Part shown: positions 3,781 to 24,919 of the stretch, one piece after another
Numbering within the stretch: the stretch's first letter is position 1
How the letters are laid out: every line of letters starts with the position of its first letter
Source of the DNA: a bacterium
Lineage (GTDB): Bacteria > SZUA-182 > DTGQ01
Assembly (NCBI GenBank): GCA_040755755.1
Contig: JBFLZW010000021.1
Coordinates: forward strand, 1-37,429
Direction: 5' to 3'
DNA: 37,429 nt
Notes under the pieces: generated by a model
What the model saw: only the letters and a program-made list of their open reading frames with translations
The model's database searches: none
What the model was told of the DNA's origin: nothing
Made by a program: the position numbers and the translations under genes

Positions 3781-5217
3781 ATGACTTCATCATCCAGAGC
3801 CTTTTTGACCGCTTACGACGCTTACGCTTATGCTTATATGAAAGATGTTACTGTAAAAACCGCTTTTGGCTTCATCGTGACCGTCACCCTGGCCTTTTGT
3901 TCCCTCACGGCAGCGGCATCCTCCCCTTCTTACCTTAAGGATGTCCGTTATTCCTCCTCACCAAACGGTTCTACCCGGGTAGTCCTCGATCTTTCGCAGG
4001 CTATCAGCTTTACCAGCCAGCTGGCCGATGATCAGCAGTCAGTTTTTATCGTCCTGAAAGATTGTGAAGACAGGTCGCACAAAGATGCCATGATGCTCAA
4101 AAGTCCCCTGGTCAGACAGGTGCGGATCAATAACCAGGAGGAATCCCGCAGTCTCGTGGTCCGGATTTCCCTGAACCGGATGGTTGACTATAAGATTTTC
4201 ACCCTTAAGCCCGAACTGGATAAACCCCACCGGATCGTTCTGGACTTTTTTCAGCCGAAGGACCACCAGGAGCTCCAGCCAAAGGTCACCGAGGTTGAGC
4301 CAGGAGACATTGGAGCGAAGCCAGGGGGCATTGGGGCAGAGCCAAAGGTCATCGGGGTGGAGAAAAACCATGAGCAGGGAGATAATGATGGCCGGGGGAA
4401 GGGGGACAGGGATATCAAACAGGAAAACATCAAGCGGGAGGAGAGCAATACCAGGGCGGGAAAAAAGAAGGTCGTGGTCATTGATCCGGGACATGGCGGA
4501 GAGGACCCCGGAGCTATCGGCAGTAATGGAACCAGGGAAAAAGATGTCGTTTTGCAGCTTGCCAGGGAGCTTAAAAGCTACCTTAACCAGCACTTTCCGG
4601 AAATCCAGGTCCATCTGACCCGCGACGGGGATTATTTCATTCCCCTTCGCAAACGGATTCTCATTGCCCATCGACACCATGCGGACCTGTTTATCAGCCT
4701 TCACGCCAATGCCAGCAGGAAAAAGGATGTGCAGGGAGCTTCCGTTTACTATTTATCCGAAACCTCCGCCAGTGACCGGGCCTCACGGCTGCTGGCCGCC
4801 AGAGAGAACTCTTCGGACCTCATTGCCGGCGTCAAACTCAGTAAGGATAAGGAAGTCAATACCATCCTGATCGACCTGGTGCAAACCTATACCACCAGCG
4901 AGAGTATCAGGATCTGCAATGCGACGCTCGATGGCCTGCATTCTTCCGGATTCCATAATAAGGGTGTCAAATGTGCTAATTTTGCGGTCTTAAAATCCCC
5001 CTCAATCCCCTCCGCCTTACTGGAAATCGGCTATATTACCAACCGTCAGGATGAAAAGAAGCTGATCAGTCAGGAGTTCCAGCGGCAAATCGCCCGGCAA
5101 ATAGGAAAGTCAGTATGGGTTTGCCTGATGGGGGGAATGCACGAGGAGCCGACTTCTCCTGAATCACCTGATGTGCACGGCAAAGCAAAAGCCGAGGCCG
5201 ACACCCCCCGGTTCTGA
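3781..5217 (+). CDS. N-acetylmuramoyl-L-alanine amidase with AMIN domain
   Basis: Periplasmic zinc amidase that cuts the bond between MurNAc and the peptide stem, used in cell separation. A signal peptide ends near residue 47 (FIVTVTLAFCSLTAAASS). If translation starts at Met20 (3838), the signal peptide has a more usual length; neither start has a strong Shine-Dalgarno. An AMIN domain covers about 52-155. The Amidase_3 domain (230-445) has His238 in DPGHGG, Glu253 in REKDV, His308 in SLHAN and catalytic Glu415 in LLEIGYITN. The linker (about 172-195) contains a three-times repeated PGxIGA-like unit made by a 21-24 nt DNA repeat. Similar to AmiC, but the subtype cannot be set from sequence alone. 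Confidence 0.92.
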   Translation: MTSSSRAFLTAYDAYAYAYMKDVTVKTAFGFIVTVTLAFCSLTAAASSPSYLKDVRYSSSPNGSTRVVLDLSQAISFTSQLADDQQSVFIVLKDCEDRSHKDAMMLKSPLVRQVRINNQEESRSLVVRISLNRMVDYKIFTLKPELDKPHRIVLDFFQPKDHQELQPKVTEVEPGDIGAKPGGIGAEPKVIGVEKNHEQGDNDGRGKGDRDIKQENIKREESNTRAGKKKVVVIDPGHGGEDPGAIGSNGTREKDVVLQLARELKSYLNQHFPEIQVHLTRDGDYFIPLRKRILIAHRHHADLFISLHANASRKKDVQGASVYYLSETSASDRASRLLAARENSSDLIAGVKLSKDKEVNTILIDLVQTYTTSESIRICNATLDGLHSSGFHNKGVKCANFAVLKSPSIPSALLEIGYITNRQDEKKLISQEFQRQIARQIGKSVWVCLMGGMHEEPTSPESPDVHGKAKAEADTPRF

Positions 5218-6203
5218 GCCAATACGACTCTACGGCCAATCGCCAATCTCAGGAAGCTCCCAAGAGTATTAGCATAATCAAGGGGGAGGATATACCAAAG
5301 GGGAGGATTCCGGTATTCATCCCCCACCGGGAAAATCGCTGCCCTGCGCGCAACGTCCATGCGCCGAAGTTCCACCCTTGAACAAAAGCCCAAAAGCCAA
5401 CCTTAATCCAAATGACATGTACAGAACGAATCATACGGCCAGCTTAATCTCATATCCCTCTGGGGGGCAATGATGCTCTTACACCCTCAAGATAATGCTC
5501 CTGCCTTCTGCGGCGGTAGCCGCTTTGGACTGCGGTAGCACGATACCGCTTTCCTTCTCCTGGATCGAAAGATGATCTGGCGGCCACTTTCCTTGCGGAT
5601 GGCTCAATACTGCCGCTTTTGAAAATAGCCGGGATTACCTTGTAATACCCATTGTAACTTGATCCTTATAACCCTTCTCCACTTCTTATCTTTTTATCTT
5701 CGTGCGCTTCATGTCCCTTCGTGCGCTTCGTGTCCTCTCACTTCCCCTCTGGATAAATTCCCCCATGAAAAGAGGGAATAATAAACCTGTCCGCCCCTGA
5801 ACCTCAAGGGGGAGGAGATTTATTGGCTATTTCCAATAGGGACAGGCTATCCCAGCCATAGGGGAAACGTTAGCTTAACACCTATGCCCTTCAGGGGCGA
5901 GGGAGAAAAACACTGCCCTTGAGCCCCACGCCTGCTCTTAACTTAATACCATTGCCTCTGAAAGGGGGCGAGGGAGTAGAGAGGTCCCCATGTTATCTTG
6001 GAGCCAGTGTCGAATTTGGCCATCACTGAGACATATTGGTTTTTAAAAAAGGAAGTGGCAAAAAAATTAGTCAGGGCTGAACATGATAGCGTTCTGTTAG
6101 AAAATTTACCGATGTATGCATTGTATTTAAGTTGTACCAAAATATAATTCAGTATCGGTATAGTTTTAGTTATATATAACTATTAACTGAAAGAGAAGAA
6201 TGT

Positions 6204-6734
6204 AACTTACGGGGCGAAGCTATAACATTTTGTACAATGATGCCTTTATGATGGTTCCGGTTCCAATGTGAGGGGCCGCCACCATAATGCTCTGGAGTAG
6301 CGGAGCACTCTTGTCCCAGCCCCATTCATCCGGTGGATGGGGTTAGAAATTTCGGCTATCGAAGCAGGTAATCCAGAGAGTACAGCCCGCAGCAAAGATT
6401 CAAGACCATGAGTATTACCTTAACCAAGATGAAACTAAAGAGTTTTACCTCCTTATACGGGCACTATTATGCGGTTCTCCAGAGAAACGGTAAATCCGGA
6501 GCGGCTCTTGGGAAAGACATAAAACCAAGTCATAACCGATTGAATTTTCACTGCTGTTTCATCATGCTGGAAAAAAATTTAAATAAGGGTGAATTCGATA
6601 ACGTTTTATAAAAACTTTATCCGATATATCTGACGTATTTAATTAGTATGAAAATAGAATTAACTATAAGTATAATAGAATATAAAATTTTAGATAAAAT
6701 AAGGAGATGGAACTTACGGGGCGAAGCTATAACA
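6204..6734 (+). repeat. 24-bp perfect direct repeat pair, 507 bp apart
   Basis: The copies are 6204-6227 and 6711-6734. Each begins AACTTACGGGGCG and ends GCTATAACA, and each is preceded by a very AT-rich stretch of about 60 bp. The enclosed segment includes a strong hairpin near 6317-6345 (CATCC/GGATG arms within C and G runs). The function is unknown; it could be the ends of a small element or two leaders of non-coding transcripts. Confidence 0.6.
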
Positions 6735-6810
6735 AATCAGGAGAAGCTGTCACACGCATTCTTGACTGTACGCTCCGAACGTGACACTCGATGAGGATAA
6801 TTAAGGGGAA

Positions 6811-7010
6811 GTGGGGACACGAAGATCACGAAAAGACACGAAGATAAAAAAGATAAGAAATAGGAGAGCTTTTAAAAACAATTTATTAGCCTCTGGTTAA
6901 TAACTTTCATCTTTTATTGATACAGAAAGAATAATGACTGATAATTTCCTTAAAAAATTTAACCTCTTCGTGCTCTTCGTGGTCCTTCGTGCTTTTCGTG
7001 ACCCTTTTTT
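6811..7010. repeat. Inverted pair of CTTCGTG-type repeats
   Basis: About 6811-6860 is built of CACGAAGA/CACGAAAAG units. About 6964-7010 is the reverse complement type (CTTCGTGCTCTTCGTGG and following). The arms are about 45 nt each and imperfect, with an AT-rich centre. A further relative is at 5690-5745. This looks like a dispersed intergenic repeat. Confidence 0.6.
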
Positions 7011-7023
7011 CATCGGGGCGTGC

Positions 7024-7103
7024 GCCCCGCCAAATACCGCACGCGATCTGATTGTTGATTCTGACCGGCTGCTGATGTATCTGCGGATTTATCGCGCTGG
7101 GTA
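7024..7103 (+). repeat. Dispersed repeat, left copy (inverted partner at 18101-18167)
   Basis: Bases 7024-7048 match the reverse complement of 18143-18167 at 24 of 25 positions, and 7083-7096 (GCGGATTTATCGCG) match the reverse complement of 18107-18120 exactly. The intervening part is different in length and sequence. The two copies enclose the whole peptide region. Confidence 0.7.
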
Positions 7104-7211
7104 CTGAGCCATTCGGTAATACATTCGAAAATACATTTGGCCATTGACAGGCCTTTGAAATCTATCCGGGAAATGGGGACGGCTCCAATGCTGATACCGT
7201 TGTAACCGTTC

Positions 7212-7255
7212 ACTCCCTCTCACCCCAACTGGGAGAGGGGTGGGGTGAGGGGGGA
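7212..7255. repeat. GC-rich palindromic repeat (CTCACCCC/GGGGTGAG type)
   Basis: An interrupted palindrome whose arms contain CCCTCTCACCCC and GGGGTGAGGG. Related elements are at 9403-9553, 11396-11435 and 16133-16185. Resembles the REP-like palindromes scattered in many bacterial genomes. Confidence 0.6.
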
Positions 7256-7468
7256 TTTTCGGATAGGCCATAACCTCAAAGGGTTTCAGGAAAGTAACTA
7301 TTCAGGTAGATAGCTGCAGATATATAGGCTGTCAGAAAAAGACAAGGCGTCCCCACCATTGAGAAAGGCTTTGAGACTGACAGACTGACAAGCCCGCAGT
7401 CTCAACAACCTGTCAACTGAAAGCCTGCATACTATTCAACAGGGAAGCCTGCATAAAAAGGGAAAGAA

Positions 7469-9346
7469 ATGAAAGGACTCCAACTGAAAGAGGATGTTAA
7501 AAACTGCTTCAGCTTATACATAAAATATGTAAAAGAAACTCTCGGCGTAAAGTTTATTATCGCAGGCATATTCTTATCAATTATAAATCAGCTTTGCAGC
7601 CTGGCAATCCCTTTCATATCAAAATTTGTAATCGATATCGCAATAATACAGAGGAATACACAGATTCTCTTAATTACCTTTTTGGTATCACTCGGTATTC
7701 TCGCCATAATGGCCCTTACCTCTCTGGTGGCCAATTTCCTGCTCTTCAAGGTTTTCGCTAAGAGTGGAATACAACTGAAAATGGATTTATTCAAGAATAT
7801 TCAAATGGCTCCCCTGAATTTCTTTAATCAGGTAACGAGAGGCGATATTACCTACAGGATTTTAACAGACACGGAAAAATTAGTCGGATTTTGGACTCAA
7901 TGCTCAGTGATGATCCCGTTTCAATTAATATTAATAATAGCCAGTATCACGATGATAACCTGGAATAAAAATCTGGCCGTATTTGTTTTCATTATCCTTG
8001 CTGTTCAATCACTGGTAATCGTTTTATTCAACAAGCCGCTTCTCAAGTATTCCTTTCTCATCAAGGAAAAGGCCCAGGAGGTTCACAAATATACCGTAGA
8101 GCATTTTTCACGGATAGAGCTTGTCCGCTCTTTTTCAAATGAAAAGCCGGAACGGGACGGTTTTCTTGGCCTCCTGAACGAGAAATTAATCATAGATTTG
8201 AAAAACTTTCTCATCCATAAGTATTCAGAGAATGTCAACTTGATAATCAGCAACTTATGGATCGTCCTGGTATTGTGGTACGGCGGGTCATTGGTTATCA
8301 ATAATGAAATCAGCTTGGGAACGCTTCTGGCCTTCTTGATGTTAGCCAATATTCTCTATAAACCGATTTATACTTTGACAGAATTATTCCTCACGTTCCC
8401 CGATGTACGATCAAGCCTCTCCAGGATTAACGAATACGATCAGGTCAAACCGCAGGTTATTGAACCTGTGCACGCTCTGGATTTTGTTCCCCAGGAGGGC
8501 AATATTTCAATAGAAAACTGCTCCTTTACCTATGATGACCATAAAATATTAAAAAATGTAAGCTTGAATATTCCTTCAAAAAGTATTTTTGCCCTGGCTG
8601 GTCCCAGCGGCAGCGGAAAGACAACCCTTTGCCGCCTTATCGTCCGGTTTTTCGATCCCCAGGAGGGCAGTATCTATCTGGACGGGAAAAATATCCGGGA
8701 CATTAAACTTTCTTCATTGCGAAGATCGGTTCTCATGACCCTTCAGACCAACCATGTCTTCAATACGACGATTTTGAAGAATATTACCTATGGATGTAAG
8801 GATTTAGATAAAACAAAGGTTTTAATGGCCTTGAAAAAAGCGGGCGTGGATTTCATCTATAAAATGCCCAACGGTCTCGAGACCGTTATCGGTTCCAATG
8901 GTATCAATCTTTCAGGAGGCGAGGCCCAGAGAATCGCTCTGGCCCGCGCCTTTTTGTTCAAACCGAAAGTATTTATCTTCGATGAGACCACAGCTTTTGT
9001 AGACCCGGAAACGGAAGAAAAGATAAAGCGCTCACTCCTGGAACTGAAAGAAAACAGCACCATAATTTTCATTGCCCATAACCTCTCGACTATTCTGCTG
9101 GCGGATAATGTGGCCATCATGGAACACGGTGTGATCAAGGAATCAGGTGTTCCCCGGGTATTGATAAATGACGAAACCAGTTACTTTTCCAGGCTGTATT
9201 CTTCGGTCTTACAAGGTGGGGCAAGTCCAGGTATTAAGGGTGATGTGAGTCCGGGTATTGGTGATGTGAGTCCAAGTCTTGGCGATGCAAGCCCAGGGCT
9301 TGAGGATGGGGCAAGCCCAAGCCTTCATGAAAGCCTGGTCGCATAG
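7469..9346 (+). CDS. ABC exporter, fused membrane and ATP-binding domains (no peptidase domain)
   Basis: A type IV-fold half-transporter that should act as a homodimer and export a substrate from the cytoplasm. Residues 25-310 hold about six membrane segments. The ATPase domain has Walker A GPSGSGKTT (378-386), signature LSGGEAQRIALARA (481-494), Walker B with catalytic Glu (FIFDE, 502-506) and the switch His537 in IAHNL. There is no N-terminal C39 domain; a separate C39 protein is encoded next. The C-terminus (585-618) carries five imperfect 7-8 residue repeats of the type SPGxxGDV, produced by a 21-24 nt DNA repeat beyond the normal end of the domain. The first gene of the plus-strand accessory block; a peptide is a plausible substrate by context only. 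Confidence 0.93.
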   Translation: MKGLQLKEDVKNCFSLYIKYVKETLGVKFIIAGIFLSIINQLCSLAIPFISKFVIDIAIIQRNTQILLITFLVSLGILAIMALTSLVANFLLFKVFAKSGIQLKMDLFKNIQMAPLNFFNQVTRGDITYRILTDTEKLVGFWTQCSVMIPFQLILIIASITMITWNKNLAVFVFIILAVQSLVIVLFNKPLLKYSFLIKEKAQEVHKYTVEHFSRIELVRSFSNEKPERDGFLGLLNEKLIIDLKNFLIHKYSENVNLIISNLWIVLVLWYGGSLVINNEISLGTLLAFLMLANILYKPIYTLTELFLTFPDVRSSLSRINEYDQVKPQVIEPVHALDFVPQEGNISIENCSFTYDDHKILKNVSLNIPSKSIFALAGPSGSGKTTLCRLIVRFFDPQEGSIYLDGKNIRDIKLSSLRRSVLMTLQTNHVFNTTILKNITYGCKDLDKTKVLMALKKAGVDFIYKMPNGLETVIGSNGINLSGGEAQRIALARAFLFKPKVFIFDETTAFVDPETEEKIKRSLLELKENSTIIFIAHNLSTILLADNVAIMEHGVIKESGVPRVLINDETSYFSRLYSSVLQGGASPGIKGDVSPGIGDVSPSLGDASPGLEDGASPSLHESLVA

Positions 9347-9402
9347 GAAGCTTGACAATGACTGTTAAAAATAAGGAGTGTAGCCCTTTTCTGCCCGTTG
9401 CG

Positions 9403-9553
9403 GGCACCTATTCTCCTGCGCCCGCAGGGCATTTGTTCTCCCTCGCCCGTGAGGGCGCTTATACTCCCCTCGCCCGTGGTGAGGGCTCCTATACTGCCCG
9501 TGAGGGCACTTATACTCCCTCGCCCCTCCGGGGAGAGGGCTGGGGTGAGGGGC
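9403..9553. repeat. Cluster of GC-rich palindromes
   Basis: Five successive short inverted repeats: GCCCGCAGGGC, CGCCCGTGAGGGCG, CGCCCGTGGTGAGGGC, TGCCCGTGAGGGCA and a larger CCCCTCCGGGG-centred one. They are spaced by TATACT-containing linkers. Frames through this array are artefacts. It may end transcription of the ABC gene or protect its mRNA. Confidence 0.65.
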
Positions 9554-9654
9554 CTGCTTGGTTAGTATCCTGAAGCTGATGACATTGGCCCTCTGCATGG
9601 AGAGGGTTAGCAACAAGGTGCATAAGAGCATTAATCGCAATTAATCATAAGCGT

Positions 9655-10506
9655 ATGAACCATAAATATATATTCATGGCAGCAGGCAGTGCGGCGGTTA
9701 TATTGCTCATCAAATCAAATGGATTTTGCCAAAGGCGTCAAATACATCCGGTGAATGAGGCGAACCAAGTGAATCAAGTGAATCAAGCGAGTCCAGTGAG
9801 CCCAGCAAATCCAGTGAATCCGGTGCCCCCCCCGGTGTATCCAATGTATCCGGTGACTCCAATGGAAAAGGGTATCACAAAGGGCACTGAGAAGCATACT
9901 CTCATGAAGGTAAGGTCATATATGGATGTTAAGTTCTCCCGCGTGGATAGACAGATGTCAGAATACACGTGCGGCCTGGCTACTCTTGCTACGCTCTTTA
10001 CCTATTATTTCGACCTGCCGGTACATGAGGATGAAATAGCGAACGATTTTCTCAAAAATATCATCATCGAGAAAAGAGGAATCAGCTTTTTGGATATGAA
10101 AAACTTTATCCAGAGTAAAGGGTATAAGGCAGCCGGGTATCAGGTAAACTTATCGGCTCTTCTTATGGTTTTGGAAGAGACTCCGGTGCCAATCATTATC
10201 CATACCATGAGAACGCAGGGGAAGTATGACATGGGCCACTTTTCTCTCCTGCTGGGCTATCGCGATGGCTATTTCATCATAAAGGATCCGGCATTTGGCA
10301 ATCGGGTCGTTTCTGAGGAAAGTTTCAGCTCTGAATTTACCGGCCGTATTTTGATCGCATTACCTGCTGATAAAGATAAAGCAATCTTGGACAAAACCTC
10401 CAAGAGATTGAAATTTGAAATCATTAACGCTCAAAAGTACTTATTAAAGGTGAACTACTTTGAAAAAGCTTACCCTAAACTTAATTATCATTTCTTTACT
10501 TTTTAG
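9655..10506 (+). CDS. Periplasmic stand-alone C39-family (double-glycine type) peptidase
   Basis: Predicted cysteine peptidase that could remove leader peptides after export. Residues 1-25 form a signal peptide or membrane anchor. Residues 34-70 are a proline/valine/asparagine linker with three-residue periodicity (NQVNQVNQ, then PVNPVPPP), made by a 9-nt DNA repeat. The C39 fold spans about 95-240 with the full triad: Cys106 in EYTCGLATL, His195 in MGHFSLLLGY and Asp211 in IIKDPAFG. Most C39 domains are fused to an ABC transporter; here it is separate and faces the periplasm, beside a peptidase-less exporter. It overlaps the next gene by 47 nt. FapD of the Pseudomonas functional-amyloid system is a known C39-like protein encoded near an outer-membrane pore, but homology of the two loci is not claimed. 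Confidence 0.85.
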   Translation: MNHKYIFMAAGSAAVILLIKSNGFCQRRQIHPVNEANQVNQVNQASPVSPANPVNPVPPPVYPMYPVTPMEKGITKGTEKHTLMKVRSYMDVKFSRVDRQMSEYTCGLATLATLFTYYFDLPVHEDEIANDFLKNIIIEKRGISFLDMKNFIQSKGYKAAGYQVNLSALLMVLEETPVPIIIHTMRTQGKYDMGHFSLLLGYRDGYFIIKDPAFGNRVVSEESFSSEFTGRILIALPADKDKAILDKTSKRLKFEIINAQKYLLKVNYFEKAYPKLNYHFFTF

Positions 10507-11344
10507 CATTCCCAAGGCCGCAGTTGCGGCAGAAACTGATGGATCGATATTCAGGTTATCTTTCGAGAAAGGCTCTCTCTACTCTCTGGATTTGAAGTAC
10601 AGAAGCTATGTCACTGAGTCAATCAGATTTAGAGTGGCCCAGCCTACGATAACCTACGGGCATTTTTTCAGCAGAGGGTGGGCATTTTTCACTTGTGCGC
10701 CGTTTATATATTCCAATAAAGAGCTTGAAGATGCCAGAGGGGAGAACGAAGAAAAACAGGTTTATCTTTTACTCGGTAATGTTGTTATCACTCCTCAGTA
10801 CAGCTTCAAATGGAAAGGCAAAACTATCCGGCTTTCTCTGGAGACGCAGTTACCTACGATGAATAGACTCTATGAACTGGAATCACAGGAAACGAAAGCG
10901 AATGGTAACGGTAATGGGCAGGGTTTTATGAATATGAATCAAAATCAATCTAATACGAGTAAATTAGGCAAGTTAAATATAAAAGAAAATAAAATATTAA
11001 CAACGAAACCCTCTATCATCATAAGCCGTGCTTATGATCCCATAATTCATGTAATAAACTTAAGCTTTTGTCAACCCTTATGGAGAGAGGAAAACCGGGA
11101 AGAAATTTACCAATATTGGAATGCTGAGGCCAGCTACGGTACCTATTTTGTTGTGAATGATAAGTTCACCCTTAATTCAGACCTTGGCATTTCAACAGGG
11201 AAAAAGAAAGAAAATTATATTCTTAAGGTCGGGACAACCTTTTTCTCGACCCCAAAACAAGGATTGGATATTTATTTGCTCAATATGTATAACGGATTAA
11301 CCTGGGAAGTTACTGCCGGAATCTCGTACACGATTACGCGGTAA
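10460..11344 (+). CDS. Predicted outer-membrane beta-barrel protein, function unknown
   Basis: A signal peptide (residues 1-24, MKKLTLNLIIISLLFSIPKA then cleavage near AVAAE) is followed by alternating amphipathic strands rich in aromatic residues. The end is a short strand finishing ISYTITR. An Asn/Gly/Gln-rich loop lies near residues 150-165. The start is a TTG at 10460, supported by AAAGGTGAA five nt upstream, giving a 47-nt overlap with the C39 gene. The fold is inferred from pattern, not from a recognised family. It could be a pore or surface partner for the peptide handled by the upstream exporter and peptidase. Confidence 0.68.
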   Translation: MKKLTLNLIIISLLFSIPKAAVAAETDGSIFRLSFEKGSLYSLDLKYRSYVTESIRFRVAQPTITYGHFFSRGWAFFTCAPFIYSNKELEDARGENEEKQVYLLLGNVVITPQYSFKWKGKTIRLSLETQLPTMNRLYELESQETKANGNGNGQGFMNMNQNQSNTSKLGKLNIKENKILTTKPSIIISRAYDPIIHVINLSFCQPLWREENREEIYQYWNAEASYGTYFVVNDKFTLNSDLGISTGKKKENYILKVGTTFFSTPKQGLDIYLLNMYNGLTWEVTAGISYTITR

Positions 11345-11395
11345 TAAGCTGAAATCTCTTATAGAATTACCCAGGAGTAATGCATGGGGCCTCCA

Positions 11396-11435
11396 CTACT
11401 CTCCTCCCCCTTGAGGGGGGATGCTGGGTGGGGGT
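11396..11435. repeat. Short GC-rich palindrome
   Basis: CTCCCCC and GGGGGG arms with TTGA between them, followed by GGGTGGGGG. Same family as 7212-7255 and 16133-16185. Confidence 0.45.
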
Positions 11436-11564
11436 GAATACAAGAACTACCCTTCTGTTAAGGGATGGGAAATAGAGCACACCTTCATATATGAGCAATT
11501 GGTTGAACTTATATAACTTTGTAGGCCATGGTACTCAAACATATATCAAAAAGGGGAGTTAAAA

Positions 11565-12689
11565 ATGGCAGAGCTACAAACACCAGCAACATCTTCGATC
11601 CCGATTAAACATGCCAAAATTCTAAAAGGCCCGCTTCAAATGGCTTTTGATATAACTAATAGATGTAATTTTAAATGCCTTCATTGTTATAACAGAAGTG
11701 GCGAGCACGATAGAATACACGATGAACTAAAGGATAAGGAAGTTATAAAATTTATTAAAGATGTTGTCAAAATTAAGCCTCTAAACCTTTGCATATGTGG
11801 GGGAGAGCCATTATTGAGAGAGGAATTAGTCTATGAGGTCGCAAAGATTCTATCGCGAGAAAACATCATGGTTTCTCTTGTTACTAATGGTTCATTAATG
11901 ACTGAGGACAGAGCAAAACGTCTTCTTGATAGTGGGATCGAAAGAATACAAGTTAGTCTTGATGGTGCGAGCGCTGAAACCCATGAGAGACTCCGTGGAT
12001 TTAAGGGGAGTTTTAAAAAAGTATTAGATGCTATTTCGATACTTAAAAGTATTAATGGTTCCAAGACAATAGTAGGGGTTGCTTTTTGTCCTACCCGGTT
12101 TAACTGTCATGAGTTTGAGAAGGTTTTTTATATGTGTAAGGAACGGGAAGTAGATAGTATTCGTATCCAGCCATTAATGCTTTTGGGCAGAGCTCAATTG
12201 AACATTAGGGGAATAGAGCCAACACCACTACAATATCGTAATTTGATGAGAACGATCAATTCCCTTTGTTATAAATATGGATCAGCATCAATAGACTGGG
12301 GCGATCCTATTGACCATCTTATAAGAAATTCCTCTGTAGCACAACATTGTGTTGTTTTCGTACATATTTTTTCAAATGGTGATATTGCTGCATCACCTTA
12401 TCTTCCAATAGTTGTAGGGAATATAAAAAGATATTCTTTTATCAAATATTGGGATGCAGGGCTGGCTCGAATGTGGGAATCGGAGTTACTAAAAAAATTT
12501 GCGAACAAAATTAAAAGCATTCCGGATTTAGGAAAAGAACATAATGGTTTGCCAATTGTTATGTTTGATGAAGATATTTATGTTGATCTTGTTGATGACA
12601 ACTTATTTAAAGTTAAGGAGTCAACAGTCAGGAGTCAAAATTCAGGAGCAAGAAGAGAAATACAGGCTGGAAGCCTGCCTGGTAATTGA
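11565..12689 (+). CDS. Radical SAM enzyme, probable RiPP maturase
   Basis: Residues 24-210 are a radical SAM domain: the cluster motif Cys34-x3-Cys38-x2-Cys41 (CNFKCLHCYN) and the SAM-binding GGEP at 79-82. The C-terminal part (about 255-305) has the outline of a SPASM/Twitch region: AQHC at 259-262, FSNGDIAASPYLP where the family normally has a G(D/N)xxPC stretch, and VVGNIKRYSFIKYW. The usual extra cysteines are missing, so auxiliary clusters may be absent or reduced. The last 22 residues are encoded by a GTCAGGAGTCA-type dispersed repeat and are probably a late addition. SD GGGAG precedes the ATG. The PqqD/RRE gene and small peptide gene downstream point to peptide modification; the chemistry is not predictable here. 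Confidence 0.88.
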   Translation: MAELQTPATSSIPIKHAKILKGPLQMAFDITNRCNFKCLHCYNRSGEHDRIHDELKDKEVIKFIKDVVKIKPLNLCICGGEPLLREELVYEVAKILSRENIMVSLVTNGSLMTEDRAKRLLDSGIERIQVSLDGASAETHERLRGFKGSFKKVLDAISILKSINGSKTIVGVAFCPTRFNCHEFEKVFYMCKEREVDSIRIQPLMLLGRAQLNIRGIEPTPLQYRNLMRTINSLCYKYGSASIDWGDPIDHLIRNSSVAQHCVVFVHIFSNGDIAASPYLPIVVGNIKRYSFIKYWDAGLARMWESELLKKFANKIKSIPDLGKEHNGLPIVMFDEDIYVDLVDDNLFKVKESTVRSQNSGARREIQAGSLPGN

Positions 12690-12703
12690 AACCCAGCCAT
12701 TTC

Positions 12704-12725
12704 GTCATTCCCGCGAAAGCGGGAG
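12704..12725. repeat. REP-like palindrome
   Basis: GTCATTCCCGCG followed by AAAGCGGGAG. This is a common type of bacterial intergenic palindrome. Relatives are a half copy at about 15284-15301 and a fuller copy at 37374-37399. The rest of 12690-12895 is AT-rich and shows no gene. Confidence 0.6.
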
Positions 12726-12895
12726 CATGTCCTAAACTTCTCTATTCTACTGCTCCTGCAAGGATGGCGATGATGTGGTACATGGAGCCTCTGTGACAGC
12801 CGAAATGAAAATCAAAATCAATGGATAAATTAATTTGATATAAAATTATTATTTTTATCTAAAAATAATTTATTAAATAATGGGAGAAATTAATT

Positions 12896-13807
12896 ATGCA
12901 AAGTTTGGAAAATCATCGCCCTATTTTTAAAAAGGAAAATCTTATATACGAGAGAGAAGAAAAGGATAGTAATTGGACAATTCTTCCTAAGTTTCATCCG
13001 GAGACGAGAGAGTTAATTATAAATCGCACTGCCAAAGAAGTCTTAATGTATTGCGATGGAACGAGGACGATTGAAGAAATAGTAAAAGCCATGAAGGACA
13101 AATACCAAAATGCAGCTATCGAATTAATAAGAAATGATGTACACAATACTCTTGCAAGTTTTTCCAGGTTAATGATTATTCAATGGGAAAATGAAAATCC
13201 TTTTCTTTTTAAAAGAGAAAGAATAATTTCTGATGAAACATTTTTTAGGATTGGAGTTGAAGAGGATATATTAGAAATTAAGGCATTTATTGAAAAATCA
13301 GGCATATCGGAGAAAAAGCTTGAACAGAAAGAAAATTCGGAACTGTTTTTATATAGAAGTTCGCTTATTGATCCAATAAATGAGTATTCAGAAGTAGCAA
13401 TGAGGCAAAAGATGTTTAGATATTATGAAGATTTTTTTATTTATTTCAATAAAAAAGAAATTTTAAGCCTCATATCAATCGCTTTGCCAATGCCTCCTAA
13501 TCAGGCTGCATCTTTTAACTTAGTAATCGCGAAGAAAAGCATCTTAAAAGATTTGCTGAGATATTCTGCGGATAATTTGCCATTTATTTCCGTTTTTAAA
13601 ATTAGAAAAATAAAATTATATGAGGATATGAATGAAAAGTTATCTCCTGAATTCGAAAAAATTTTTGTTGATGAAGGATATAAACAGGAAGGCATACTGA
13701 GGGATGAGTTAGGATTAAATCATGACCTGAGGATCATGAGTTGGATATATGATCCTTTATTTATCGACGAGGTTGAAAAACAAAGAAGCAATATTACATA
13801 TAATTAA
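12896..13807 (+). CDS. PqqD-like RiPP recognition element fused to a GNAT-like domain
   Basis: Residues about 15-100 match the PqqD/RRE winged-helix fold: FHPETRELIINRTAKEVL, then CDGTRTIEEIVKAM and an amphipathic helix ending FSRLMIIQW. Such domains bind RiPP leader peptides and hand them to the modifying enzyme. Residues about 115-295 resemble a GNAT acyltransferase, most clearly in VDEGYKQEGILRDEL followed by RIMSWIYDP, which fits the last strand-helix pair of that fold. The acetyl-CoA loop is not obvious, so activity is uncertain. SD GGGAG lies 9 nt before the ATG. It sits between the radical SAM gene and the candidate precursor, and codon use is strongly AT-biased. Confidence 0.78.
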   Translation: MQSLENHRPIFKKENLIYEREEKDSNWTILPKFHPETRELIINRTAKEVLMYCDGTRTIEEIVKAMKDKYQNAAIELIRNDVHNTLASFSRLMIIQWENENPFLFKRERIISDETFFRIGVEEDILEIKAFIEKSGISEKKLEQKENSELFLYRSSLIDPINEYSEVAMRQKMFRYYEDFFIYFNKKEILSLISIALPMPPNQAASFNLVIAKKSILKDLLRYSADNLPFISVFKIRKIKLYEDMNEKLSPEFEKIFVDEGYKQEGILRDELGLNHDLRIMSWIYDPLFIDEVEKQRSNITYN

Positions 13808-13996
13808 TTGATAGTTGATTACTGTAGTTAGGACATATGTATTCAAACTTTTTATATGAACTGGATCAGAAGTGTCTTACAGATACACCTTAGTAATTCA
13901 TATAGTATATTATCTTCCCGGGGGAGAAGGAGCCTATCAGAAAATTCTGTCTATTTTTTAGAGAGATTATAAAAAATTAGGGAGGAGGTGAAAATT

Positions 13997-14149
13997 ATGG
14001 CATATGAAAGACCTTCAATCGAGGCTTTAGGTGATGCCCAAATGGGTGAAGTAATGGGTGCCTGGGCTTTTGCTCTGGTCTTTGTACCTTTTCTATCTTT
14101 CACCTGGCCATTTGGCACAGGCGGTGTGGGCATATATCTGGTCCTGTAA
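13997..14149 (+). CDS. Candidate RiPP precursor peptide, 50 aa
   Basis: A 50-codon gene with an excellent ribosome binding site (GGGAGGAGGTGA, 6 nt before ATG) and a terminator 54 nt after the stop. The peptide starts MAYERPSIEALGDAQ, which fits the YxxPx(I/L)xxxG leader pattern bound by RRE proteins, best known from lasso-peptide leaders. Residues 15-50 are hydrophobic and aromatic (GAWAFALVFVPF, SFTWPFGTGG, VGIYLVL) with no cysteine, and a Gly-Gly lies at 42-43. No lasso cyclase or protease genes are present, so lasso chemistry is unlikely; the radical SAM and RRE-GNAT genes just upstream are the likely partners. An alternative is a small membrane protein. Confidence 0.75.
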   Translation: MAYERPSIEALGDAQMGEVMGAWAFALVFVPFLSFTWPFGTGGVGIYLVL

Positions 14150-14202
14150 TTGCTGCTTAGAGTTAGTTTGAGCAGCGTGATTTTTGTCTGAATGATAGGC
14201 TA

Positions 14203-14230
14203 AAAACTCTTCTCCCCTGGGAAGAGTTTT
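14203..14230 (+). terminator. Rho-independent terminator after the precursor gene
   Basis: Ten-base stem AAAACTCTTC / GAAGAGTTTT with an 8-nt loop and a 3' TTTT. It would separate the precursor mRNA from the LolA-like gene. Because the A and T runs mirror each other, it may also work on the other strand. Confidence 0.7.
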
Positions 14231-15190
14231 ATGGAGATTAATAATAAGAGAAATACAGGAAAGTATATGAAAAGAAGATCTTGCGGGAAAATGAGTATGG
14301 AGAGTAAAAAGAAATTGTACTTTTCGAAGTCTCAAGAATCTGGTTGGAATTTGAAACCGAGTGCCAGGATATCAATAATAATGCCCCGGTTATCATCAAT
14401 ATCAATACTAATATCGTTAACATTATTAATCCTCTCCTTTTTCACCTTATTACCAGCGAAAGGATTCCCAATGGATTTACCAGACATAACTTACATTACT
14501 CAAACTGCCAGGGAGAAACATGAAAACCTTAAGGCAGCGATACCCAATATAGCACTTGTCCAGGAGTCAATTACCGTTACTGATAAAGATAACATTACTT
14601 CGATTATTAAATCTTTTAAGCAGGGTGAAAAGTTCCGGATGGAGGCTGAAATTACCTCAAAACTTAACCAGGGTAAAAAGGCTATTACCATTTATGATGG
14701 AACAGACTATTGGACTATTTCTTCCGGAGTAAAGACCAGGCTTTCCGAGGACATGAAGAAAAAAATTCAGACTACTGCTGAAAGGAAATGGTGGGACTTG
14801 CTTCCTGATGGGGCGGAGATCAAAGGCATCGAGAAAATTGATGAATCTGAATGTTACCTCATAGCACCTGGTAAGGTATCACCCCCAAAAGTAGAAAAGA
14901 ACTCTATTAACAGACTTTGGATTGATAAAGAAAAACTGATGTTACGCAAAGTCGAATCCATAGGGCTAAAAGGTGAAATTTACATTATGGTTATTTCTGA
15001 CTTTCGCACCATTAAAGACAATATAGAAATTCCTTTTAAGGTAATGACATATAAAGATAATAAGCTCGTGTCAACTGTTACAACAAAGTCTTGTGAAATT
15101 AATAATGGAGGGTTTCCGAGTAAGTATTTTGATGCAAATGCAGAGCAAGATATTAATATTAAGGAGGTTATCAAGGAATTATTTGATTGA
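14231..15190 (+). CDS. LolA-like outer-membrane lipoprotein-sorting family protein
   Basis: The mature part (about residues 85-319) resembles the LolA/LolB-like fold found in proteins named outer membrane lipoprotein-sorting protein. Recognisable segments are KFRMEAEI, TIYDGTDYW, NRLWIDKEKLMLRKVE and the late ISDFRTIKDNIEIPFKVM. The first ATG directly abuts the preceding terminator stem, so translation probably starts later: Met13 (14267, AGGAAAG upstream) or Met51 (14381), which would begin just before the hydrophobic export segment (54-76). These proteins bind hydrophobic acyl or peptide ligands in the periplasm. A role in carrying or resisting the hydrophobic peptide is inference. Confidence 0.8.
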   Translation: MEINNKRNTGKYMKRRSCGKMSMESKKKLYFSKSQESGWNLKPSARISIIMPRLSSISILISLTLLILSFFTLLPAKGFPMDLPDITYITQTAREKHENLKAAIPNIALVQESITVTDKDNITSIIKSFKQGEKFRMEAEITSKLNQGKKAITIYDGTDYWTISSGVKTRLSEDMKKKIQTTAERKWWDLLPDGAEIKGIEKIDESECYLIAPGKVSPPKVEKNSINRLWIDKEKLMLRKVESIGLKGEIYIMVISDFRTIKDNIEIPFKVMTYKDNKLVSTVTTKSCEINNGGFPSKYFDANAEQDINIKEVIKELFD

Positions 15191-15917
15191 TTAAAAGTAA
15201 CTACTCAGGCACAAAGCACAGAGGGACAAAGGCACAAAGGGGAAAAGAAGATACAGTGAACGCTGAGCACTGTAAATCCTCAAAGGCTTCGCGGGAATGA
15301 CGAAATGGATAAAGCTAATGGAGAAATGGCCGTTGCGATTGCGATGGCGAAATGGTCGTTGCGAACAACGAAGTAGTCAAAGTATATTGAGAAGTCTGCT
15401 CCCCCTGCCGGATGAACAACCCTCAGCTAATTGCTGAGCAGGTCACAAAGGTGCGTGTACCAGCCCCGGATGTTCTGGCGAAGTACGTACTGGCTTGCCT
15501 GCCTAAAGTGCGTAGTGGCTGCCCTGCGAAATGCGAAAGTCTATCGCGCAACTACGCACCTGGCCTGCCGTTCCTGCCGCCTTGCCATCGTAAGCGCAAA
15601 TGTATCCTGCTATCCTGTGCTGTATCCAGTTCCTCCGAACACCCACACCTCAAGTGCGCAGCAGAGCAAAAGCCGAAGGCGATATCCGGTCTTCTCAGTA
15701 ACTTAACCATCCTCCCAGTCAAGGCTTTTCATATCCTGTCCGCACACGCCCCCCCGGAAAGAGCGTATTGTCTTCGATATCCATACTTTCTTCGAGAACC
15801 TGGCTGAAAAATTCCGGGAGCCTGCCCCAGTGTAAACATGCCTCAGTGTCGGACCTGCTCCAGTGCCGGATGCCATCACCTCCTTTCGAATAGGCAGAGA
15901 GCCTCTGCTCTGCCGTG
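15191..15917. other. Gene-free spacer
   Basis: Contains a CACAAAG/CACAGAGG-type repeat (15205-15240), a half REP-like element (about 15284-15301) and GC-rich sequence with no convincing gene. On the minus strand an almost perfect anti-16S sequence (AAAGGAGGTGAT) at about 15878-15889 has no start codon at a suitable distance; it may be the remnant of another peptide cassette. Confidence 0.6.
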
Positions 15918-16025
15918 TTATATGAAACGAAAAAAACCAAAGGGAGTAAAAACTGTAAAGCGCGGAATCCAGATAAAAAATGGAGTAATCAGTATCCCTG
16001 CTTTGATGCTGGTTTTTATGTTCAT
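15918..16025 (-). CDS. Small aromatic peptide A (divergent paralogue)
   Basis: A 35-codon gene, too short for normal calling. Residues 1-15 read MNIKTSIKAGILITP and residues 27-35 read TPFGFFRFI. It shares with peptides B-E the positions Ile3, Thr5, Lys8, Gly10, Thr14-Pro15, Thr27-Pro28, Gly30 and Phe32, without gaps. It is the most divergent copy: its ribosome site is weaker (GGGTGAAA instead of AGGAGGTGAAA) and it lacks the final alanine. It lies last in the array, 373 nt after B. It could be decaying or specialised. Confidence 0.6.
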   Translation of the reverse strand: MNIKTSIKAGILITPFFIWIPRFTVFTPFGFFRFI

Positions 16026-16132
16026 GGTTTCACCCGGTCCTTTTCGTGGTTATCAAGGTTATCTAAGTTATCAACATTACCAAGGGTAGTAGCAAATTCT
16101 TGATCATAAGTATATTCCAGGGTGGTTCCTGT

Positions 16133-16185
16133 ATTCACCTCCACCCAACCTCCCTCCTCAAGGGGGAGGAGTGTAAGGGGAAGTA
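16133..16185. repeat. GC-rich palindromic repeat
   Basis: CCTCCCTCCTC and GGGGGAGGAG arms. Same family as 11396-11435 and 7212-7255, in the spacer between peptides A and B. Confidence 0.45.
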
Positions 16186-16294
16186 ACTAAAAGTAAATAC
16201 CTGCTGAAGGCGAACTTATTACTGTACCTGATCACTGTACCTGGAAAAAACTCTCGTTCACGACATTGCCATGCTCTCAATATCAATATCAATA

Positions 16295-16335
16295 CCCTCA
16301 CGCCGGAGAGAAAATCCATTCTCCAGGCGTGAGGG
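16295..16335 (-). terminator. Strong stem-loop between peptides B and A
   Basis: CCCTCACGCC plus GGAGA pair with TCTCC plus GGCGTGAGGG, giving about 15 pairs with one bulged base and a 10-nt loop. It lies 64 nt after the stop of peptide B. There is no U tract, so it could be a weak terminator or a 3'-end stabiliser rather than a classical terminator. Confidence 0.5.
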
Positions 16336-16398
16336 CATCTTGGGCTAAGGTGAAATTGTTTCCTTTACTCTATAATCTATAACCATACTCCATTAAGG

Positions 16399-16509
16399 TT
16401 AAGCAAAGAAATTGAATAAACCCCACGGGGTTAATCCGAAACAGTTAATGAGAGTCAAACTCCAGGGAGTAACACGAAATCCTGCTTTCAGACTGGTTGC
16501 TATCTTCAT
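16399..16509 (-). CDS. Small aromatic peptide B
   Basis: A 36-codon gene preceded by a near-perfect ribosome binding site (AAAGGAGGTGA, 5-6 nt from ATG). Residues 1-16 are MKIATSLKAGFRVTPW, residues 17-25 are SLTLINCFG and residues 26-36 are LTPWGLFNFFA. Two TPW motifs bracket a variable centre. It is basic at the N-terminus, hydrophobic afterwards, and has no long leader. Ala9-Gly10 with Leu7 at -4 resembles a very short double-glycine type site for a C39 peptidase. No known family is recognised. Confidence 0.8.
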   Translation of the reverse strand: MKIATSLKAGFRVTPWSLTLINCFGLTPWGLFNFFA

Positions 16510-16738
16510 TTTTTCACCTCCTTTCCGTAATATGCCTTCGGTTCATAGACTGGGCCGGAAATGCCCTCTCTAAAACCGCCTCCCGAGAGCATGGGTCTGT
16601 AATACAGACACTCTCTGACTCTCTGAAGGATATAATAACTGGACGTCCTCAGTTCAGAGTGTAGTGTACCTCCTCCGAACAATAAGCCTTTTCATAACCA
16701 AATCAGGTATGCCTCCTGGTTATATTGCATTATCAGTA

Positions 16739-16849
16739 TCAGGCAAATAAATGGAAAAATCCAAATGGTGTTAATGCACTTATGCACCAGATATTCAGAC
16801 TCCAGGGAGTAACACGAAATCCTGATTTAAGGTTGGTTGCTATCTTCAC
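16739..16849 (-). CDS. Small aromatic peptide C (GTG start)
   Basis: 36 codons, starting with GTG; its ribosome site is GGAGA. Residues 1-16 are MKIATNLKSGFRVTPW, 17-25 SLNIWCISA and 26-36 LTPFGFFHLFA. It is a clear paralogue of B, D and E with Ser9 in place of Ala9. A longer in-frame ATG frame reaches 16942, but homology to the other copies begins exactly at this GTG. Like B, it has one cysteine in the variable centre. Confidence 0.78.
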   Translation of the reverse strand: MKIATNLKSGFRVTPWSLNIWCISALTPFGFFHLFA

Positions 16850-16969
16850 TATTGATCTCCTTGTCTCATTGTCTCCTTGTTCCAAAATTACCAACGGCTT
16901 TCGGCATTTCTCTCCAGTCCGGGTTATCTTTGATTTCTCCATTACCAGCCTGTTGAATGGCTTTGTGGA

Positions 16970-17070
16970 GTATCACTCTAATAACCGGCTTCGCTGAAAA
17001 AGCTTGGCAATAGTGGAAAGGCATTTCCACTGCTGCCAGAAAGCCTTTCCACCACTGCTTTACGTGATAC
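16970..17070 (-). repeat. Hairpin-rich spacer unit between peptides D and C
   Basis: Bounded by GTATCAC (16970-16976) and GTGATAC (17064-17070), the latter touching the TAG stop of peptide D. Inside is a near-perfect hairpin at 17012-17031 (AGTGGAAA/TTTCCACT) and further CCTTTCCACCAC half copies. The same arrangement recurs at 17278-17396. These elements would fold at the 3' end of each peptide message. Confidence 0.65.
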
Positions 17071-17180
17071 TAGGCAAAGAAATTGAATAAACCCCATGGA
17101 GTTAACCAATACCAATCCACGATGGTAAGACTCCAGGGAGTGACGCGAAAACCTGCTTTCAGATTTGTTGCTATCCTCAT
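17070..17180 (-). CDS. Small aromatic peptide D
   Basis: 36 codons with ribosome site AAAGGAGGTGA before ATG. Residues 1-16 are MRIATNLKAGFRVTPW, 17-25 SLTIVDWYW and 26-36 LTPWGLFNFFA. It has four tryptophans. Closest to E, differing at four positions (Arg2, Leu18, Tyr24, Trp29). Its TAG stop overlaps the inverted-repeat spacer downstream. Confidence 0.82.
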   Translation of the reverse strand: MRIATNLKAGFRVTPWSLTIVDWYWLTPWGLFNFFA

Positions 17181-17277
17181 GATTTCACCTCCTTTTTTTA
17201 GGATTGCCAAAAGTTTCCGGCCTTTCTATCCAGCCTTTTTGATCTCTCCTTTTAGCCTGCTGATCCGGCCTCGTGGA

Positions 17278-17396
17278 GTATCACCCCTCCACTGAAGAAG
17301 AGCTTATCAATGGTGGGAAGGCCTTCCCACTATTGGCGGAGAGACCTTCCCACCGCCTGGGTGGGAAGGCCTTCCCGCTACTGCCTAAGGTGATAC
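17278..17396 (-). repeat. Hairpin-rich spacer unit between peptides E and D
   Basis: Bounded by GTATCAC (17278-17284) and GTGATAC (17390-17396, touching the TAG stop of peptide E). It holds an 18-base perfect palindrome at 17313-17330 (GTGGGAAGG/CCTTCCCAC) and a near-copy at 17361-17378. Same design as 16970-17070 with different stem sequences, so structure rather than sequence seems kept. Confidence 0.68.
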
Positions 17397-17506
17397 TAGG
17401 CAAAGAAATTGAATAAACCCAACGGAGTTAACCAGAACCAATCCACGATAGTAAAGCTCCAGGGAGTTACCCGAAAACCTGCTTTAAGGTTAGTTGCTAT
17501 CTTCAT
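17396..17506 (-). CDS. Small aromatic peptide E (first of the array)
   Basis: 36 codons with ribosome site AAGGAGGTGAAA before ATG. Residues 1-16 are MKIATNLKAGFRVTPW, 17-25 SFTIVDWFW and 26-36 LTPLGLFNFFA. It is the most upstream copy and lies 831 nt downstream of the ABC exporter operon on the same strand, with a structured leader before it. No database family is recognised; a secreted or membrane-active peptide is the favoured interpretation. Confidence 0.82.
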   Translation of the reverse strand: MKIATNLKAGFRVTPWSFTIVDWFWLTPLGLFNFFA

Positions 17507-17538
17507 AGTTTTCACCTCCTTATCTCAGGGTTTAGCCC

Positions 17539-23589: not shown

Positions 23590-24814
23590 TGTGTCCTCCG
23601 GTGACTGATCCAGCCGTTGCAGCGGACCCGGCAGGTCCGTCCATCGAGCCGAAGCTTTTCGAGGGGCGCGTCAGCAGCTTTCCCACAAGCCGCAGTACCA
23701 GCTCTGCCGGTGTGGTTCGATCCACCTCGACTTCAACCGAACCTGACAAACCATGCTGGAGAGGGATAGAAGAGACAAGGTTCGGGTCAAGAGCAAGCTC
23801 AGCCCTGACCTGCCCATCCCTGACTTCACTGGCGATCCTGGCGACCCTGGCTGGAATGCAGCCATATTGGGTCCAGGGGAAGCTGTCCAGGCGAAGCTGT
23901 GCCCGTTGACCGGGCCGGATGCGGCCTACCGTCTCTGATGCAGAAAAAAGAGCTGTAATGATAAGCCGCCCCGGAGTGAGAATGGTTCCACATCTTTCCC
24001 CCTCATGGATTACCGACCCGATCCTCAGATCCTTCATGCCATCAATTTGCCCGGCCACCGGTGCCCGAATTGAACCCTTGCCAATCTCGCCGAAGAGCCG
24101 CTCGATAGTCAGGGTCTTGGCCGCTATTTCTCCCTTGACCATAGCTATCTGGCGTTTGATCTGCTCTCTGCGCACCCGGCTTTCACTCTGACGGTTCTTT
24201 TCCTCCCATTCGAGTTGATGGGCACGAAGTTTGAGCGCCTCAGCCACCTCCTGGCGCTTTTGCATCTCTGCTTTTGTACGGAGGAAATCCACCTCGGACA
24301 CAATGCCATCAGCCCGCAGGACCTCCATCCGCTTGAATTCGTCCTCCAGCAGCACAAAGTCCACTTCCGCTTCCCGCTGCCTGGCCCGGGCCTCATCAAT
24401 GGCTTTTCGGGCTATCTGCTGATACTCATAATGTGCCTGCCTCTGAGCCTTCAATTCTCTGAAAAGCGCATCGAGCTGCCGGCTCAGGGCATCCACCTGA
24501 GAGCGCTCCTCAGCAACCATCAGGTGCTCCGAGGCCGTATCCAGTTCAACCAGAAGGTCGCCAGGCTGCACCTTCCGGCCCAGCACCATGTGATTGGCCA
24601 CAACCCGCCCCCCGATGGGAGCGTCCAGCGAATAGGCCGCCAGGTCCAGCTCTATCATTGCTGCCCCGCTCACCTCATACAGGGTGACTCTGGCCGCCAA
24701 AAACCAGATTGCCCAGAGAACCAAAACCACAGCGGCAAACACCAGGCACAACACCGACCGCCGATGGCTGTCGGCCCGAAGCGCCCGCAGGGAACGGGAA
24801 AAAAACCTGGACAT
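23579..24814 (-). CDS. HlyD-type membrane fusion protein of the export operon
   Basis: Periplasmic adaptor linking the inner-membrane ABC pair to an outer-membrane channel. It has one membrane segment (about residues 20-42), a split lipoyl-like domain (DAPIGGRVVANHMVLG and IRAPVAGQIDGMKDL), a long coiled coil (about 100-235) with many Glu, Arg and Gln, and a C-terminal beta-barrel part. I choose the ATG at 24814 because GGAGG lies 5 nt upstream; an in-frame TTG at 24826 would add four residues. First gene of the operon; no TolC-like gene is present in the window. Confidence 0.9.
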   Translation of the reverse strand: MSRFFSRSLRALRADSHRRSVLCLVFAAVVLVLWAIWFLAARVTLYEVSGAAMIELDLAAYSLDAPIGGRVVANHMVLGRKVQPGDLLVELDTASEHLMVAEERSQVDALSRQLDALFRELKAQRQAHYEYQQIARKAIDEARARQREAEVDFVLLEDEFKRMEVLRADGIVSEVDFLRTKAEMQKRQEVAEALKLRAHQLEWEEKNRQSESRVRREQIKRQIAMVKGEIAAKTLTIERLFGEIGKGSIRAPVAGQIDGMKDLRIGSVIHEGERCGTILTPGRLIITALFSASETVGRIRPGQRAQLRLDSFPWTQYGCIPARVARIASEVRDGQVRAELALDPNLVSSIPLQHGLSGSVEVEVDRTTPAELVLRLVGKLLTRPSKSFGSMDGPAGSAATAGSVTGGHNVR

Positions 24815-24919
24815 CAGTGCCTCCAATGCGTGGATTGAGGATATTTTGGTTAACGAGAATATGCCGCCAGGATTATTTTAGCAATTTTTCTTGGCAACTA
24901 TTGTTATATCAAGATCGGC

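Follow-up and report, generated by a model that had tools for sequence, protein, structure and literature searches.

The 37,429-nucleotide stretch of DNA analysed here (the window) very probably carries a RiPP cassette, built around a radical SAM maturase, a PqqD-like protein and a short precursor peptide. We base this on the presence of such a peptide in 15/15 loci, the co-divergence of the radical SAM and PqqD-GNAT proteins, the tandem precursors of locus L069 and a terminator after the precursor gene. A sequence-only reading had already drawn attention to the three genes, in this order and on one strand, and had taken them for a RiPP cluster with an RRE protein and a YxxP leader; both points were borne out, and the cluster falls outside every named radical SAM RiPP family searched. 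We further suggest that the radical SAM enzyme remodels the peptide core and that the product is exported, and we give this proposal as a whole about an even chance. The three genes do lie at 11565-14149, where the cluster had been placed, but the locus is larger and also includes an ABC exporter, a C39 peptidase, a putative outer-membrane protein and a LolA-like protein. Its features are as follows.

About 5113-15928 (5114..15927), no strand: extent of the cassette island, from blastn against sister species L080
7469..9346, forward strand: ABC exporter (membrane and ATPase parts, without a C39 domain), probably for a peptide; PF00664 E 8e-33, PF00005 E 3e-29
9655..10506, forward strand: C39 cysteine peptidase with an N-terminal hydrophobic segment; PF03412 E 9e-21
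10460..11344, forward strand: putative outer-membrane beta-barrel protein with a TTG start, overlapping the C39 gene
11565..12689, forward strand: radical SAM maturase; Pfam PF04055 E 1e-26
12896..13807, forward strand: PqqD (RRE) domain fused to a GNAT-fold domain; PF05402, AlphaFold, Foldseek
13997..14149, forward strand: precursor peptide, 50 aa; ORF reading, alignment, leader motifs
14151..14177, forward strand: terminator-like hairpin, 11-pair stem with a T-rich tail; RNA fold
14231..15190, forward strand: LolA-like protein with a signal-peptide-like segment; PF17131 E 1e-5

The precursor, MAYERPSIEALGDAQMGEVMGAWAFALVFVPFLSFTWPFGTGGVGIYLVL, starts at ATG 13997 with the Shine-Dalgarno sequence AGGAGGTG just upstream and ends with the stop at 14149; the GTG at 13988, given as the start in the ORF listing, is part of the ribosome-binding site. 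The peptide has no Pfam match. The hairpin begins 2 nt past the stop codon, and the segment 14140-14200 folds at -17 kcal/mol (z -2.2). No Rfam elements were found near the precursor, and a sigma-70 promoter scan gave results no better than shuffles.

In the precursor alignment, the columns that do not vary are the Y and P of YxxP. Further along the leader, I8, L11, M16, V19 and G21-A22 fall at positions -15, -12, -7, -4, -2 and -1 of the classical rule for C39 recognition, which calls for hydrophobic residues at -15, -12, -7 and -4 and for GG or GA at the end (PMC10885120). The corresponding leader motif, [LM]xx[VIT]xG[GAES], was seen in 6/6 peptide loci with a C39 gene and in 0/6 without one, a contrast that is inflated by the relatedness of the loci; several of the C39-less loci have other leader ends, such as QPLG. 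This co-occurrence and the fit to the rule support the C39 protein as the probable leader peptidase, which would cut after Gly21-Ala22. The position of the motif sets the window leader at 22 aa (residues 1-22) and the core at 28 aa.

Relatives were sought with a radical SAM profile scan of 84,980 species genomes and follow-up searches, which recovered the three core genes of the cassette from about 17 other genomes, mostly as contigs of metagenome-assembled genomes (MAGs). The hosts belong to Bacillota, Spirochaetota, Gemmatimonadota, Gracilibacteria and poorly classified MAGs. The cassette is rare: it was seen in 4/392 genomes in the order of Petralouisia and in 2/296 in the phylum of the Treponema MAG, and a search of 386 broad relatives returned only two genomes, both already known. 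Wherever the contig was sufficient, a YxxP ORF with a hydrophobic tail stands beside or near the radical SAM gene (15/15 loci, the window included, with L015 and L016 left out of the count because their contigs end too early), far more often than chance would give. This is the opposite of what the sequence-only reading had named as its refutation, radical SAM/RRE pairs that never adjoin the peptide. The filter used for these peptides was occasionally positive on control DNA, there with unrelated ORFs. The peptides of these loci are 44-79 aa long, and those of the relatives mostly have a Val/Ala/Gly-rich hydrophobic core. Wherever the contig reaches, the PqqD-GNAT gene also accompanies the radical SAM relatives, in several phyla, and the distances of the two proteins are correlated (Mantel r 0.84, 0/5000 permutations). 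In the radical SAM tree, members of different phyla are intermixed, an indication of transfer. Locus L069 has four tandem precursors on one contig, with leaders alike and cores variable. There are additions elsewhere: a second radical SAM/SPASM enzyme and a GNAT-only paralogue in L017 and L022, a B12-radical SAM enzyme next to the peptide in L021 and L024, and SdpI or DUF3784 genes in L017, L018, L021, L022, L024 and L025. In the window, neither an SdpI or DUF3784 gene nor a B12 enzyme was found.

Decayed copies were also encountered. A Bacillota MAG (L037:1946-2784) retains an intact YxxP peptide along with the remains of its GNAT and radical SAM genes, the latter a 79-aa fragment that includes CxCGGE, and in Thermoanaerobacterium (L022:8668-10547) a decayed first copy of PqqD and radical SAM directly precedes the intact radical SAM gene. 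A Peptococcaceae MAG has three small ORFs in tandem (MTFVLPD...GELGEEDLNRVAGGAGETQGKCYGFGY; L027:10361-11511, reverse strand) in the vicinity of another radical SAM gene; they resemble precursors of some other RiPP.

Only five cysteines are invariant among 11 aligned radical SAM enzymes of the family. C34, C38 and C41 form the CxxxCxxC of the AdoMet cluster, while C76 and C78 make up a CxC directly before GGE. All 15 family members had the resulting CxCGGE, as against none of 22 other radical SAM enzymes from the same scan. The predicted structure puts C76 and C78 in strand beta-2, directly N-terminal to GGE, and from this secondary structure and the position of the motif the pair is expected to face the SAM site. 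The C-terminal part is SPASM-like and has lost the cluster ligand cysteines, leaving no auxiliary cluster. NCBIfam assigns the enzyme to none of its families (the best score was 127.5 bits, with the cut-off at 500); by fold its nearest neighbours are SkfB, SuiB and MoaA. Its relation to EpeE is remote (profile E 4e-9), with an alignment that stops before the Cys223 region. The PoyD model TIGR04517 had no match in this genome at E 1e-20, and control genomes gave none either. The last 24 or so residues of the enzyme (12613-12689) run into a dispersed repeat of the AGTCAGGAGTC type, with many copies in the genome.

The second protein had been called an RRE-GNAT protein, and structurally this holds. 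A PqqD domain (PF05402) occupies residues 34-89 (32.9 bits, above the cut-off of 23.4; E 8e-8) and was found in 10/10 homologues; the C-terminal half has a GNAT fold (AlphaFold pLDDT 85), for which Foldseek returned RimL and SpeG (best RimL, E 2e-8). This half is hardly visible to Pfam sequence models and was recognised through structure prediction; a PDB sequence search with the whole protein gave nothing useful, and a tblastn search of plasmids gave one weak PqqD match only. The CoA pyrophosphate loop motif [QRK]xxGx[GAS] is absent in 16/16 homologues, and the GNAT domain looks catalytically dead and is regarded here as a scaffold. A 2025 survey of RREs found that 21% of PqqD-annotated proteins are long and without a second Pfam domain, and termed this an opportunity (PMC12710340); the present family fits that group.

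The related cassettes L015, L020 and L071 hold homologues of most of the window's neighbour genes. The ABC protein has homologues in L015, L020, L071 and L017 (phmmer 3e-203 to 2e-104), the C39 peptidase has relatives in L015, L020, L071 and L019, and the outer-membrane candidate has homologues at the matching place in L015 (2e-52) and L020 (3e-29). The last of these proteins has no confident Pfam or NCBIfam match, and its putative beta-barrel nature is suggested by a signal-peptide-like N terminus and by composition. The LolA-like protein scores 25.7 bits with PF17131, under the cut-off of 30, and has a homologue in the L071 cassette (E 1e-8). At its C-terminal end the ABC protein has short tandem repeats, GDVSPGI/GDASPGL (9209-9335), and GC-rich repeats of 20-30 nt come after them in the intergenic stretch (9394-9519).

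A 10.8 kb segment (5113-15928) is missing in a congeneric species (G001, contig L080), where blastn finds the flanks colinear and about 128 bp apart. The cassette was therefore gained here or lost there as one unit. In 1-kb blocks at 6-15 kb the island has a G+C content of mostly 31-42%, whereas the flank on its left has about 50%. Close to each island end (5165-5206 and 15646-15687) there is a copy of an imperfect 42-nt repeat (79%), a possible insertion mark. In the long non-coding stretch 5' of the ABC gene there is also a 28-nt direct repeat, 96% identical (6200-6227 and 6707-6734), without an Rfam match. A second peptide system occupies 15918-17515 and 18337-24826 on the reverse strand, with four paralogous peptides of about 36 aa (consensus MKIATNLKAGFRVTPWS...LTPWGLFNFFA), a related fifth one at 15918-16025 (MNIKTSIKAGILITPFFIW...) and, on the same strand, an HlyD protein, a C39-ABC protein and an ABC protein similar to those of NHLM-type export. 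Strong ribosome-binding sites precede most of the four paralogues. Four peptides of this type occur at the equivalent chromosomal place in the sister species (L080:973-1972).

The window core, WAFALVFVPFLSFTWPFGTGGVGIYLVL, is Cys-free, which excludes thioether chemistry, as had been noted at the outset. It has two Trp, five Phe and one Tyr; the richness in Trp and Phe, also noted earlier, is peculiar to the window member, and the family's cores are rich in Val, Ala and Gly. Pooled, the cores consist of 26% Val, 23% Ala, 9% Leu and 8% Gly. The L019 core is made up of G, F, V, A, M, L and I alone, and the L069b core has neither an aromatic residue nor a Cys; any reaction common to the family must therefore work on plain aliphatic residues. 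Aromatic C-C crosslinks, raised earlier as one option, were rejected as the family-wide chemistry, since some cores are without any aromatic. Side-chain volume alternates along the cores with a period of two (the pooled value was reached by 3/2000 shuffles; window core p 0.008), with core starts placed by eye and with significance for only some of the peptides taken singly. No 3.6-residue period was seen.

We suggest that the enzyme epimerises its peptide, converting L to D residues, and on the conserved cysteine pattern and the context we rate this a little short of even. Proteusin epimerases have the radical SAM cluster only and require a critical Cys, EpeE relies on Cys223, and the structurally known radical SAM crosslinkers have auxiliary clusters (PMC8326336). 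The single cluster, the invariant spare cysteines, the cores without crosslinkable residues, the two-residue alternation, the B12-radical SAM partners and the SdpI/DUF3784 genes all argue for epimerisation. The PqqD domain would bind the N-terminal YxxP of the precursor and present the hydrophobic core to the radical SAM enzyme, which would abstract C-alpha hydrogens along the core; a thiol of the CxC would then give hydrogen back from the opposite face, and several hydrophobic residues would become D-amino acids. The ABC protein would export the peptide, with the C39 peptidase removing the leader, and the putative outer-membrane and LolA-like proteins might serve delivery across the outer envelope. 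By analogy with gramicidin or polytheonamide, the 28-residue product might be a membrane-inserting, bacteriocin-like peptide, an idea we hold tentatively and at well under even confidence. Several points tell against epimerisation: the enzyme is outside the PoyD family and only distantly like EpeE, its closest folds are those of other enzymes, the CxC might instead have a redox or structural role, the alternation depends on core boundaries set by eye, and in the window, where the core is richer in Trp and Phe than elsewhere, none of the immunity-like or B12 partners of other loci was found.

Some of these same points would favour a RiPP cassette with a different C-H modification, whether a C-C or C-O crosslink, desaturation, hydroxylation, decarboxylation or backbone rearrangement. 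SkfB and SuiB make crosslinks, the window core offers Trp, Phe and Tyr and the link to EpeE is weak, but the auxiliary-cluster cysteines of known crosslinkers (PMC8326336) are absent here, and some cores have neither aromatic nor heteroatom residues; we consider such a modification possible, and clearly less than probable. The product could also be no bacteriocin at all but a secreted structural or amyloid-like hydrophobic peptide, a fibre subunit tailored by the radical SAM enzyme. The window C39 peptidase resembles those of the FapD and FilB type (66.6 and 69.2 bits), its gene adjoins that of the putative outer-membrane protein, and Val-rich alternating cores are beta-prone. Both scores, however, fall far short of the respective cut-offs, there is no outer membrane in the Gram-positive members, and the SdpI and DUF3784 genes found in many members resemble immunity genes, which makes a fibre improbable.

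An active acyltransferase in the GNAT half would instead yield an acylated peptide or lipopeptide whose acyl group the LolA-like protein carries. The fold is nearest that of RimL, an N-alpha-acetyltransferase, and the LolA-like gene adjoins the precursor. We nevertheless rejected this role, since the CoA loop is missing throughout the homologues; moreover, Lys, Ser, Thr and Cys are all missing from the L019 core, whose N-terminus becomes free only once the leader has been cut off. We rate acylation as improbable. Finally, the peptide could be an unmodified class II-like bacteriocin, with an unrelated substrate for the radical SAM pair. Some peptides do match class II bacteriocin models weakly (PF10439, E 3e-6 in one member), but the three genes occur together in every informative locus, the two proteins co-diverge, and the Y and P of YxxP do not vary. 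This we regard as very improbable indeed.

Epimerisation remains our preferred chemistry. The closest known systems resemble the cassette only in part. Proteusins of the polytheonamide type share with it a hydrophobic core, an RRE and a radical SAM enzyme whose one cluster is that for AdoMet, and with L021 and L024 also a B12-radical SAM enzyme. Unlike their long nitrile-hydratase-like leader, the family leader is a 22-25 aa YxxP leader (that of the window, at about 22 aa, has no NHLP model match), the RRE is on a separate PqqD-GNAT protein, and the radical SAM enzyme is outside TIGR04517 and carries CxCGGE. Epipeptides (EpeX/EpeE) likewise have a short leader cleaved on export, a hydrophobic core, an expected membrane-active product and a proposed Cys hydrogen donor; yet EpeE has two clusters and its Cys223 elsewhere, whereas the family enzyme has no conserved auxiliary-cluster Cys, and epipeptides have no PqqD-GNAT protein and unrelated precursors. 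Given the mismatch with both the PoyD and EpeE families, functional resemblance should not be read as membership.

Lasso peptides share the YxxP motif and a PqqD-type RRE, but here there is a radical SAM enzyme, and the scanned window ORFs include no lasso cyclase or B-type protease; the earlier statement that both are missing stands to that extent, with the qualification that a peptidase, of the C39 type, is present at 9655-10506. In GeoRSP, SynChlorMet, PQQ and mycofactocin systems a radical SAM enzyme also works with a PqqD-like protein or small peptide, but scores are far under the family cut-offs, the SPASM cluster Cys are absent here and the peptides differ. C39 double-glycine bacteriocins and microcins have a hydrophobic peptide, a GG or GA leader, a C39 peptidase and an ABC exporter, to which this family adds a dedicated radical SAM enzyme, an RRE protein and the YxxP motif. 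In contrast to sactipeptides and ranthipeptides, the window core has no Cys and the radical SAM enzyme no SPASM or twitch cluster Cys.

We found no Pfam or NCBIfam model for this class of cassette and no description of it in the open literature, with preprints and subscription papers largely outside our scope and an earlier description possible. There is a real chance that it is a RiPP class of its own. In its broadest form, which we think unlikely, our proposal is of a widely transferred class whose radical SAM enzyme has one cluster and a CxC dyad for hydrogen relay and, assisted by a PqqD domain that sits on a retired GNAT scaffold, turns hydrophobic YxxP peptides by epimerisation into pore formers of alternating D and L residues. 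Spread over Gram-positive and Gram-negative bacteria, this would be a polytheonamide-like solution of independent origin, with another enzyme family and a short leader.

If our proposal is correct, several bacterial groups would share a new RiPP class, distinguished by a radical SAM family and a precursor family not found elsewhere under a Pfam or NCBIfam name and by a scaffold that fuses RRE and GNAT. How peptide epimerases regenerate their hydrogen-donating thiol could then be tested directly on the invariant CxC next to the SAM site, and the precursors, with hydrophobic cores of 25-56 aa and no need for Cys, are simple substrates. The cassettes might be a source of pore-forming antibacterials together with the genes for immunity to them.
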